The position numbers were made by a program, and so were the translations under genes. DNA of 43,054 bases from Phycisphaerales bacterium (lineage in GTDB: Bacteria; Planctomycetota; Phycisphaerae; UBA1845), in contig JABFSN010000002.1 in NCBI GenBank assembly GCA_013140575.1, positions 1 to 43,054 on the forward strand, read 5' to 3'. Numbering within the stretch: the first letter of the stretch is position 1; every line of letters starts with the position of its first letter. Under the pieces are notes generated by a model. It was not told where the DNA came from and did no database searches. It saw nothing but the letters and a program-made list of their open reading frames with translations. Below, piece after piece: positions 32,042 through 36,556 of the stretch.

Positions 32042-32377
32042 CTATGCGTCCGGCTCCATCGTGGCCGTCATTTCAAACGTCTGGAATTGTTCGCAGTACA
32101 GCTCGGCCCGCTCGCGGTGCGTGACCACCAGTAACGCAACGCCGGTCTGATGGGCCTCGAACATCCGCTCGATCGCCTCGTCGGTGGACAGTGGCGTCAA
32201 CTCCACGATCACCCTGACGACGTGCATCATGTCGTTCACGTCGTCGTTGTGAAGCAACACACGATACGGCGGCAGCATCCGTGCCGCCGGACGAGTCTCG
32301 ACCGGGGCCACGGCCGTCGCTGTCGAGCCGCCGGTGTCCGCTGAATCGATCACGATCGCTTGTTCAAGTTGGTCCAT
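32042..32377 (-). CDS. clpS: ATP-dependent Clp protease adaptor ClpS
   Basis: 111 residues from the ATG at 32377. The ClpS fold starts at PYRVLLHNDDVNDMMHVV, with the substrate-pocket and ClpA-contact residues N-D-D and the following helix. It continues with TPLSTDEAIERMFEAHQTG and LLVVTHRERAELYCEQF. ClpS delivers N-degron substrates to ClpAP. The clpA and clpP genes are not in this window. The gene is 70 nt downstream of a coiled-coil lipoprotein gene on the same strand. The N-terminal 36 residues form a flexible tail, as usual. Confidence 0.93.
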   Translation of the reverse strand: MDQLEQAIVIDSADTGGSTATAVAPVETRPAARMLPPYRVLLHNDDVNDMMHVVRVIVELTPLSTDEAIERMFEAHQTGVALLVVTHRERAELYCEQFQTFEMTATMEPDA

Positions 32378-32447
32378 AGCTTTTTCGTCCGCCGTGCGGC
32401 TCCTGAATTGCCTCAATCGGCCATTTTCCCAGAATCGCGTCGAGGAA

Positions 32448-33104
32448 TCAACCCCCGCCGTCTGCATCCGACCGGATGGCCTCCACCGCAATGGTCTTGG
32501 TCGCGGTAAACGGCCGGCCGGTCGCCAAATCCACGAATTCCATCCAGATGTCGATTTCCTGCCCCGGTTTGGGTTCGAATCCGGCGGTGAACGGCACCTC
32601 CACTTTGTAATGATTCGTCCAGAACCGTCCGTACCACGCCTTGCGGATGAAATCCGCGTCAGTCAGAAGCGCGAACCCCACCGTCCGCGTCTGCCCCGGC
32701 TCCGCATGGTCGAGCAGCTTGATGGTGATCGGCCCGCCGACTTTCAGCACGTCGCCGTCAGCATCGACTGGACGGAAATAGACGGCGACGCCGTCGTCTC
32801 CAGGCCGGTCGTCCAAATTAACGCCGTCGCTAATGTCCAGAATGACGACCTTCTCGATCTCGAACAGCGGCGACGGCGGCAGCCTTCCTTCGGTCTGGAG
32901 GTTTCGGATTTGCCCGGTCAACGATTCGATTCGCGCGTCACGACCGGCCAGTTGCTCCTCCAGCTCGATCGTCTCGACCTTCAGGCGGTTGATCTCCTGG
33001 GACAGGACGCGAAACTTCTCTTGCTCGGTCGGACCGCATCCTCCGCCGGCGACAATTCCGAACCACCCCGCAACGGCCACGATCGTGAAACGAGCACGTA
33101 CCAT
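32448..33104 (-). CDS. coiled-coil lipoprotein-like protein
   Basis: 218 residues from the ATG at 33104. A signal peptide ends in GGGC (C23); the -3 position is Gly, so the lipobox is not ideal. A coiled coil at about 28-72 (EINRLKVETIELEEQLAGRD, then RIESLTGQIRNLQ) leads to a beta-sandwich domain (VVILDISDGVNLDDRPGDDG ... FTAGFEPKPGQEIDIWMEF). The family is not recognised, though this layout recurs in planctomycete lipoproteins. It is probably periplasmic. It is followed by clpS in the same direction, although the two have no evident functional link. Confidence 0.8.
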   Translation of the reverse strand: MVRARFTIVAVAGWFGIVAGGGCGPTEQEKFRVLSQEINRLKVETIELEEQLAGRDARIESLTGQIRNLQTEGRLPPSPLFEIEKVVILDISDGVNLDDRPGDDGVAVYFRPVDADGDVLKVGGPITIKLLDHAEPGQTRTVGFALLTDADFIRKAWYGRFWTNHYKVEVPFTAGFEPKPGQEIDIWMEFVDLATGRPFTATKTIAVEAIRSDADGGG

Positions 33105-33194
33105 GCCGTGGCTATACCCAACCCCGCCGTCGCCTGCAAGTTGATTCCCGACCTTCGACGCGATCGCGTCAGCCGGCGCGGAGCGCAACAAGAA

Positions 33195-33224
33195 GGACCA
33201 CACCCGCCGATGCGGATGTGGTCC
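33195..33224 (-). terminator. intrinsic terminator of the Cys-rich gene
   Basis: An 8-bp stem (GGACCACA and complement), one mismatch, a further 4-bp stem (CCGC/GCGG) and a loop CGAT. Read on the minus strand it is followed by TTCTTGTT, about 58 nt after the stop at 33282. Confidence 0.65.
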
Positions 33225-33281
33225 CCATCAAATCACTCGTCCGACGGACCCGCGGGAAAGCGGGTCACCCCGGAAGGCGAA

Positions 33282-33914
33282 CTAGCTCTTGGCCGGCTTG
33301 CCGTCCTTGAACGCCGTGTTGCAGGCCTTGCAGGTGCCGTCCGTCAAACGGGCGGTCGCACAGCCTTCGCACTTGGCGCTGTCCTTCACCGCGGCCTGGA
33401 CGGTCGCATACGCCGCCACGGCGTCGTCGTAGGATTCCTTGCTGTTATACTGGTGGTGGCCGACGAATCCTTCCTTGCAGTGGTCGCAGAAACCACCGGT
33501 CTTGAAGGCCTCGGCGCAGGTCGAGCAATGCGACTCGATCCCCGCGACCGCATCCGGGGCGATCAGCTTGCCCTTGGCAAGCACGAACGCGGGCTTGGAC
33601 TGGAACGTCCGTCCCTCGGCCACGAACGTCTTGCAGTGATCGCAGGCGCCGCCCTCGGTCGCGGCCTTCTTGCAACCCGGGCACTTCGACTCCTTCAACT
33701 TGCCGGTCATCTCCGTGCTGCCCGCGAGCAGGTCGTAGAGCGCCTGGCTGTTAACCTCCAACGCAAACACCTTGCCGTGCTTGCAGCCGCCGCAGAATCC
33801 TTCACCCGCCTTCTCGATCTTGCCGCAACCGGCGCAATCCGGACCCGCGAACGCCGCCGACGACAACGCGGCCACCGACAATCCACAGACCACCAACATT
33901 ACTAGCCGACGCAT
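33282..33914 (-). CDS. secreted protein with four CxxC pairs (zinc-ribbon-like repeats)
   Basis: 210 residues from the ATG at 33914 (GGAG eight bases upstream). The signal peptide MRRLVMLVVCGLSVAALSSA continues to an AFA cleavage site. Four paired motifs follow: C27/C30 with C41/C44, C78/C81 with C91/C94, C130/C133 with C143/C146 and C182/C185 with C195/C198. Each pair of CxxC motifs is 9-10 residues apart, and the repeat period is 51-52. This looks like four metal-binding knuckles on a helical scaffold. Exported zinc ribbons are unusual, and disulphides are an alternative. No family is recognised. The gene stands alone, with its own terminator. Confidence 0.87.
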   Translation of the reverse strand: MRRLVMLVVCGLSVAALSSAAFAGPDCAGCGKIEKAGEGFCGGCKHGKVFALEVNSQALYDLLAGSTEMTGKLKESKCPGCKKAATEGGACDHCKTFVAEGRTFQSKPAFVLAKGKLIAPDAVAGIESHCSTCAEAFKTGGFCDHCKEGFVGHHQYNSKESYDDAVAAYATVQAAVKDSAKCEGCATARLTDGTCKACNTAFKDGKPAKS

Positions 33915-34355
33915 CGACTTTCTCCAAAAATGCAAAGACCCAGCGATTTGCCTAAAACCCCGTCCGCACCGTGCTTCCGGAGTCGATCTTTCCAGCTTAA
34001 TCTATCGGCGACTTGATCCTCCAGGATCGAAACGTAACCGCTTGCCGCACGGACGTACGCTTGGCCCGGGTCAGCATGGTCCTTCACGCTCGATTACCGG
34101 TTGGGACAACTGTGCGGCGGGCGGAATAGTGCCACAACGCCGATCAGCCGTCAAATCCCAGCCCACAGGCTGTTACACGTTTGTTATAGGATAGGACGCA
34201 TCAACGGGGCTCCGTCCTGCGCTGGGCGAAATCCGCTGACACGGCAGAAAAAGCTAAAACAACTGTAACGACATTGAAAATATGATGTTACGATGCTACG
34301 CACCAAATCTGTGCCGACAACTTCCGACAGATTGGCAGTGTGAATGCGGCGGTCG
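33915..34355. other. spacer, no gene recognised
   Basis: About 440 bases, noticeably more AT-rich from 34240 to 34330 than the surroundings. A promoter for the Cys-rich gene should lie here, but I found no box pair with correct spacing. Confidence 0.4.
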
Positions 34356-36242
34356 CTAATCCGCAACCAGCGGCGCCAGCGAGTTGATGGCCGCATAAAT
34401 CCGCTGCGTGGCGGCATCAAGATTGCCGCGACCGCCCTCGGCCGCGAAATCCGACAGGTCGACCGGTCGACCGTATGCAATGCGCGCATGATGGCGGGAG
34501 AATACCGATTTGAAGGTGCTGTCCCGGTCGCTGACCCCGGCGATGAACGCGGGGATCACGGCCGCGCCGGTTCGCAGCGCCAACAAGGCCACACCATTCT
34601 TCAGTTGCTCGTCGGTTTCCTTGTTGCGGATGCCGCCCTGAATGAACATGCCGATGACTTCGCCGTCGCGCAGGCGGCGGATGGCCGTCTTGGTCGCGCC
34701 AACGTCGTTCTCGCCGCGGCGGACCGGAATGCACCGGGCCAATCGAATGAACCAGCCGAAAACCGGCGCGTTGTAATATTCGGCCGCGATCATGAACGCC
34801 GGGCGCCGATAATCGCATGTACCATAAACCAGCAGCGGATCGACCGGGGACACGTGGTTGGCGGTCACGATGACCGGTCCGCTGTGCGGGATTGTGCAGC
34901 GCGTACGCGGTTCCAACCGGTACCAAAACTTGACCATCAGCTCGCACAGGTTGCGGACGAATGCGAATTGCCGATCGAACGGGAACCCGAACGAGCGCAC
35001 CCGATAGGTCATGGCGGCGGTGCTCAGCAGGATGAACACGATCAGCATCAGAATGAAACCCGCCCAGCGGTCCAACGCCGTCCATTTCGGCAACGCCAGC
35101 GCTCCCGTAGCCACTAGCAACCCGCCGACCGTGGCCACGTTATAGATTCCGTAGACGCGTCCTCGTAACCGGTTGGGCGTCATGCGTTGAATCATCGCGT
35201 CGTAGCTGGCCGCCAATCCGGCGCCGAACACGCCGGCCATGAACACCGACGCCGCCCCCCAAACGTGGGCGAATGTTGGTCCTACGGGAACAAACACGCT
35301 ACCCGTCAAACTGCTGATGGCCGCGCCAATTCCCACCAGGCACCAGGTGATGGCCACATCGCTGCGCAATGCCCGTCCCAGGATCGACACCAGCACCGCG
35401 CCGCCGGCCAGTCCCAGCCCCAGCCATGCCGGAAACCGGGCGATGTCCCGGAAATCGCCTCCGTATACATTCTTTACGATCGCGGGGATGACGCTGCGGA
35501 CGGTGGCGCCGGAAAACCAGAACACCACGGCCACCCCGATCAACCGGGCCACCCGCCGGTGCGTCACGACGTAGCCCAGTCCAGCGCCCCATCGCGCATG
35601 TCCGGCCGGGGAATCGCCGATTCGCGAACGGACCCGCTGCGCGGCAGTCCGAATAAACAACAAGCAGAATGCGCTCAGCGCAAACGTCGCGGCGTCCAAA
35701 TGGAATGCCGTCTGAATCCTGCCCTGCTGGGCCAGTTCGCCGCCGACAACGGCCGCGAACATGGTGGCGATCAGGCCCATGCCGCCGATCAATGCGTTGG
35801 CCGGCACCAGGTCGCGTGCATCCACCAGTTCCGGCACCATGGCGGAGCGGGCGGGGGCGAACAGGGTGGCGAAGATGCCGACGAATCCCAGCGGGATATA
35901 GGCCCCCCATTGGCGGCCGGCAATTCCAGTGAAGTAGTCGATCAGCCCCAGGAAACCGAACATGATCGCCACGCGGACCAGGTCCGCGCCGATCATGACC
36001 CACTTCCGCGGCAGCCGATCGGCCAGCGCCCCGCTGAACGCTCCGAACAGGAAGAACGGCAGCATGAACGAGAACGTCATGCGGGCCTGCAACGGCGTCA
36101 CGTCCACGTCCGGGTTCAGGGCGCCCAGATGGGCCAGAATGGCCATTTCCGACAGATGGTCGCCCAGCGCGCTGATCCCGTACGCGCACCACAACAGCAT
36201 GAACCCGCGGTTGGACAGGAGCGATCGAATGGAAGGTTGCAC
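34356..36242 (-). CDS. MFS transporter fused to a PlsC-type acyltransferase
   Basis: 628 residues from a GTG at 36242 (GGA upstream); an in-frame TTG at 36320 would add 26 residues. The first 425 residues form an MFS permease resembling LplT (NRGFMLLWCAYGISALGDHL, GALADRLPRKWVMIGADLVR, RLRGRVYGIYN). The rest is a 1-acylglycerol-phosphate acyltransferase-like domain with NHVSPVD (H-x4-D, 462-468), a middle RGEND, and GMFIQGGIRN where FPEGTRS is usual. The LplT-Aas combination recycles lysophospholipids in the inner membrane, so that role is inferred. Loss of the motif-III glutamate is odd. Confidence 0.9.
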   Translation of the reverse strand: MQPSIRSLLSNRGFMLLWCAYGISALGDHLSEMAILAHLGALNPDVDVTPLQARMTFSFMLPFFLFGAFSGALADRLPRKWVMIGADLVRVAIMFGFLGLIDYFTGIAGRQWGAYIPLGFVGIFATLFAPARSAMVPELVDARDLVPANALIGGMGLIATMFAAVVGGELAQQGRIQTAFHLDAATFALSAFCLLFIRTAAQRVRSRIGDSPAGHARWGAGLGYVVTHRRVARLIGVAVVFWFSGATVRSVIPAIVKNVYGGDFRDIARFPAWLGLGLAGGAVLVSILGRALRSDVAITWCLVGIGAAISSLTGSVFVPVGPTFAHVWGAASVFMAGVFGAGLAASYDAMIQRMTPNRLRGRVYGIYNVATVGGLLVATGALALPKWTALDRWAGFILMLIVFILLSTAAMTYRVRSFGFPFDRQFAFVRNLCELMVKFWYRLEPRTRCTIPHSGPVIVTANHVSPVDPLLVYGTCDYRRPAFMIAAEYYNAPVFGWFIRLARCIPVRRGENDVGATKTAIRRLRDGEVIGMFIQGGIRNKETDEQLKNGVALLALRTGAAVIPAFIAGVSDRDSTFKSVFSRHHARIAYGRPVDLSDFAAEGGRGNLDAATQRIYAAINSLAPLVAD

Positions 36243-36556
36243 GTACGATTCCAGCGGGCTTCCGGTCGGATTATCAGAACGAACGGCGCGGATTGAAACC
36301 GACAATCCGCGGCCGGGCAAGGCGGGGTCGATGGCGTGGGAGCGCCGACGCGCCCCGTCGGCTCGTCCGGCGCATCCGCTGTTCGACGTGCGCGGGTCCG
36401 ATCCTGAGCGCGGCGATGGACCCGCGTCGGGTTCGTCACTTGAGAAAAAAAGCGTCCGGCCGGTCGGTTAACTCAAGCGGTGTATTCACGGCACCGATGA
36501 TTGCCGCAAATGTTCGTTTTTTCGGCGCGTCACGTCGAAGCAAAGGGAGACAGCGT
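36243..36556. other. divergent spacer, no gene recognised
   Basis: This separates the divergent MFS-acyltransferase and Ser/Tyr/Gly-rich genes and must hold both promoters. I could not identify either with confidence. Confidence 0.4.

Follow-up and report, generated by a model that had tools for sequence, protein, structure and literature searches.

An undescribed Planctomycetota family of exported proteins with tandem four-cysteine units that may be ordered by zinc

Zinc modules built on four cysteines are normally cytoplasmic. Among the described families, the double zinc ribbons DZR_2 (PF18912), Zn_ribbon_6 (PF07191) and DZR (PF12773) come closest to the proteins reported here, as they share tandem units of the type CxxC-x(about 10)-CxxC. 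The cysteine-rich domain of DnaJ likewise carries several CxxC pairs on structural zinc, and metallothioneins and periplasmic metal buffers are rich in cysteines that serve as metal-type ligands. We analysed a stretch of 43,054 nucleotides from a Phycisphaerales bacterium (GCA_013140575.1, contig JABFSN010000002.1, positions 1 to 43,054), hereafter "the window", which encodes a protein that resembles the double zinc ribbons in having CxxC knuckles about 10 residues apart and four ligands per unit. Its scores lie below the curated Pfam cut-offs of all three ribbon families (DZR_2: 26.3 vs 27, Zn_ribbon_6: 20.8 vs 25, DZR: 12.9 vs 27.3 bits), and Zn_ribbon_6 weakly matches 18 of the 23 members compared (best E 3e-6). 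No model from Pfam, NCBIfam or PHROG reaches its cut-off, a sequence search of the PDB gave no match to the family, and our searches of the open-access journal literature returned no description of it. We regard this repeat family as undescribed.

By profile search, the family is present in about a third of the genomes of its Phycisphaerae order (38 of 114), and in a sample of 392 genomes of the phylum 19 have it; its named records are mostly Phycisphaerae MAGs, Phycisphaerales UBA1845 among them. A single-sequence search of the genome contigs gave no matches, and the family matches in these contigs came from a closer seven-row alignment. One record (JANQQE010000005.1, 219285 bases) is titled Alphaproteobacteria; it has the same gene and size as G004:C23, from the planctomycete family of the window, and the title looks wrong. 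In a tree of 55 members there is a clean division (100/99) between branch A (26 members, including the window protein) and branch B (29 members), the latter marked by a DAHGH-type motif past unit 1. The genome of the window has one copy from each branch, with the B copy at G000:C6:12723-13328.

The ORF at 33285..33914 on the minus strand (210 aa; ATG at 33914, stop 33282-33284) is a real gene: apart from its start codon it has a GGAG, read in the sequence as Shine-Dalgarno-like, 11 nt upstream of the ATG (33922..33925, minus strand), GC by codon position of 0.56/0.51/0.86 with the third-position value of the coding type, and homologues. Folding revealed a terminator-like hairpin of 15 pairs with a T-rich tail downstream of it (33193..33226, minus strand; fold z -4.7 for the region 33170-33284), so the gene and the next one downstream are probably transcribed separately. 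This next gene (32451-33104, minus strand) encodes a coiled-coil lipoprotein without a family match and is located between ClpS (32045-32491) and the repeat gene. The window also encodes an MFS transporter fused to an acyltransferase (34359-36320, minus strand; Pfam MFS_1 and Acyltransferase). Residues 1-23 of the repeat protein, MRRLVMLVVCGLSVAALSSAAFA (33846..33914, minus strand), read by eye as a signal peptide with probable cleavage after AFA, and the same pattern is kept across the branch A homologues, while several branch B members have a lipobox-like start (both by eye). These features strongly suggest that the protein is exported, in agreement with the earlier sequence-only reading, in which it had been called secreted.

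Behind the signal peptide follow four tandem units, each with the pattern CxxC-x9/10-CxxC, all on the minus strand and defined by alignment and unit comparison, with the additional help of a model of units 3-4 for the last two: unit 1 (residues 25-76, 33687..33842; putative ligands C27, C30, C41 and C44), unit 2 (residues 77-128, 33531..33686; C78, C81, C91 and C94), unit 3 (residues 129-180, 33375..33530; C130, C133, C143 and C146) and unit 4 (residues 181-210, 33285..33374; C182, C185, C195 and C198), which ends past its hairpin. The first cysteines at 27, 78, 130 and 182 (steps of 51, 52 and 52) and the 10 (unit 1) or 9 (units 2-4) residues between the paired motifs agree with the figures first read from the letters. 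The period of 51-52 residues, then called strict, is indeed so in the window protein, but not in the family, whose members mostly have 45-54 residues from one unit to the next; branch B keeps two of its three steps fixed, at 49 and 52. All 16 cysteine columns align over 23 homologues with 24-49% identity, save for CC, CxC and CxxH variants, so the pattern is no product of chance. In hhalign, the unit profiles derived from these homologues match one another with 92-98.6% probability. Against 300 shuffles that moved every residue except the cysteines, the real score of most unit pairs of the window protein was reached 0 to 4 times, the exception being the weak pair of units 1 and 4. Thus, the likeness of the units is more than cysteine spacing alone, which supports their homology and the tandem duplication proposed at the outset. 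Other homologues have 2, 3, 6 and 7 or more units, an answer to the suggestion in the sequence-only reading that homologues with other repeat numbers be sought.

AlphaFold2 with alignment A1 (pLDDT 90.6, pTM 0.83) predicted ordered helices and hairpins, in which the first CxxC of each unit begins a short helix, the second lies in a beta-hairpin and a further helix follows in all but the last unit, which ends with the hairpin; units 3-4 modelled alone keep the same fold. For both the whole model and units 3-4, Foldseek found no PDB match under E 1 and VIA none with Z of 2 or more, searches in which small zinc domains are easily missed. The conserved non-cysteine positions, together with this confident ordered model, suggest a rigid fold that would not be metallothionein-like. 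Within the units the spacing of 9-10 residues is near-constant and between them it is variable, which argues that the ligands would pair within a unit and not between neighbours. The proposal of a zinc ribbon stands in part: the CxxC ligand pattern agrees with it, but there is no clear sign of a classical ribbon, as the Pfam ribbons score below their cut-offs and the predicted unit has no PDB match in these searches.

Evidence on the nature of the cysteines comes from units that have lost one. We listed the units of 59 members (about 230 units), and nearly all have four cysteines. Ten units have three, and in eight of them a His occupies exactly the fourth position (CxxH; unit 1 of L017, L018, L090, L002, L171, L025 and L082, and unit 4 of L042). 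In unit 3 of L163 the His is located one residue beyond the missing cysteine (CxxDH), which brings the units with His in or beside the fourth place to nine of the ten; the tenth, in L099, has Ser. By our reading of the tree, from which L090 is absent, these losses are about seven separate events. Two bases must change to turn a Cys codon (TGY) into one for His (CAY); hence the His swaps are not what drift gives. The spacing of the pairs itself drifts (CC, CxC, CxxC), but the number of ligands stays at four per unit. A unit of three Cys and one His is a standard zinc site, and would be a poor site for disulphides. The recurrence of His at or beside the missing cysteine in spite of the two base changes strongly suggests that the cysteines are metal ligands and not disulphides, as the idea of a duplicated metal-binding unit had implied, and the metal itself is likely to be zinc.

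Exported cysteines could be oxidised in these organisms, since they carry VKOR, which we found in 20 of 20 related genomes (DsbB in 0 of 20), and envelope disulphide formation in these relatives probably runs on it. VKOR and weak matches to EGF_laminin (E 0.05) would suit an extracellular repeat of the EGF/laminin type, stapled by disulphides and free of metal, but the recurring units with three Cys and one His would leave one cysteine unpaired, and we consider such a repeat very improbable. It also seems improbable that the CxxC motifs cycle between thiol and disulphide in a relay or in electron transfer, possibly together with DUF255 (PF03190), a thioredoxin-fold family that adjoins three branch A members and three relatives with shorter units (see below). 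The presence of CxxC motifs and of VKOR in all 20 relatives fits thiol-disulphide chemistry too; on the other side, CxxH, CC and CxC all occur, which is unexpected for a redox CxxC, and the near-constant spacing between the motifs of a unit is that of a shared site.

We propose, at about even odds, that the window protein is a zinc-ordered adaptor or scaffold of the envelope with four metal-binding units. The two CxxC motifs of each unit would together hold one metal ion, most likely Zn2+; the metal, whose role is probably structural, would link the helix start to the beta-hairpin, and the helices between the sites would pack unit on unit, giving a short rigid rod on which other exported proteins of the cell envelope could be held. 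The adaptor role is suggested by the neighbourhood of branch B, where in 26 of 29 loci an exported partner is encoded no more than 1 kb away, on one strand or the other (two of the three loci without it are at contig ends), as against none of 30 branch A loci, the window included. Across the order the partner is present in 18 of 19 genomes with branch B and in 6 of 95 others. It has the N-terminal pattern GsHxWxxNExFSNxDGTIQFxE and no match in Pfam or the PDB, and the tails of some copies are IPTL-CTERM-like or dockerin-like; an assignment to the lamin-tail domain was dropped, as there was no Pfam match. Beside the branch B paralogue of the window genome (L046) there are two tandem partner copies (G000:C6, 13388-14671 and 14923-15945, minus strand). 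Branch B would thus have a single dedicated partner, the product of a neighbouring gene. Such adjacency of genes does not prove binding, and the adaptor function suggested by this tight pairing reaches branch A only by homology. Branch A would serve another client, which in a minority of relatives may be the exported, thioredoxin-like DUF255 protein, linked in places to an RND efflux pump.

The latter association is also seen in exported proteins from elsewhere in the phylum that have 26-28-residue units in 2 to 7 or more copies. Their units match those of the window family in hhalign with 97-98%, and the homology extends beyond the cysteines: per unit, between 18 and 23 of the 23 members score above every one of 100 shuffles with fixed cysteines (mean z 5.8-8.5), with the exception that the window protein's own unit 1 fails to do so. 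In two loci (L114 and L115) the gene order is ECF sigma factor, short-unit repeat protein, DUF255, RND permease and adaptor; a third short-unit relative (L161) adjoins an exported DUF255, and RND-adaptor genes are located near the repeat protein in L116 and L217. The protein at L114 (7793-8692; listed also as L095), between the ECF sigma factor and the DUF255-RND genes, is a short CxxC repeat protein of seven units with a terminal HMA-like domain (E 1.4e-4, slightly short of the Pfam cut-off) that lacks CxxC. Three branch A members (L080, L150 and L078) adjoin an exported DUF255, cut short in L078, and in L080 an RND permease and adaptor follow behind it, giving the operon type of L114 and L115. 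Most branch A members are beside neither DUF255 nor an RND pump, and within 10 kb branch A has no conserved neighbourhood except DUF255 at these three loci. The window gene itself has no conserved neighbours and is not adjacent to ECF, DUF255 or RND genes.

The main rival to the adaptor is a metal buffer tied to efflux, whose four sites would load and release Zn2+ (or Cd/Cu), protect the envelope and feed efflux. It draws on the operons of L114 and L115, the similar one of L080, the RND-adaptor pair near L116 and L217 and the HMA-like end. However, the RND permease scores higher with multidrug models than with CusA/CzcA (no cut-off reached), the HMA-like tail lacks CxxC, and the conserved non-cysteine core would be needless for buffering. 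Furthermore, the repeat protein was not seen in 39 of 40 further loci of the RND clade, some with short flanks, which indicates that the link is to the exported DUF255 and not to the pump; the repeat protein is an optional companion of DUF255. We find the buffer rather unlikely. Of the three roles considered initially, the scaffold or adaptor is thus the favoured one, buffering retains a minor share, and the His swaps speak against the redox relay.

If the adaptor reading is extended to all these proteins, which we do tentatively and with more doubt than for the window protein, the family could be a new extracytoplasmic class of zinc-ordered adaptors, modular in the number and length of units, that arose by evolution within Planctomycetota for holding particular exported clients, i.e. 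the partner in branch B and elsewhere the RND-linked exported thioredoxin-like protein. In any case, a four-cysteine module occurs here in a conserved exported family in which the repeat number is an evolutionary variable. The tightly paired partner of branch B offers a testable route to the function of such a module outside the cytoplasm, and the family is a concrete case for asking how thiolate zinc sites acquire their metal and stay reduced there. It also gives a handle on many unnamed exported proteins of Planctomycetota.

Against the known systems, the window protein differs from the DnaJ cysteine-rich domain in that it has no CxxCxGxG, uses other spacing and is exported, and from metallothioneins, which are flexible and cysteine-dense chains, in being a predicted ordered repeat with a conserved non-cysteine core. 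Related to it are the short-unit proteins of other Planctomycetota (L095, L092, L097 and L093), for which we found no known family and which have in common with it export and a CxxCxxAxxxDGWCxxCKVGYxxG core; they lack the helical insert between units, have 2 to 7 or more units, in one case bear the HMA-like tail and in several are encoded near DUF255/RND genes. Compared with the double zinc ribbons, the window family adds a helical segment of 20-25 residues to each unit, is exported, and is predicted to place its first CxxC at a helix and its second in a hairpin.
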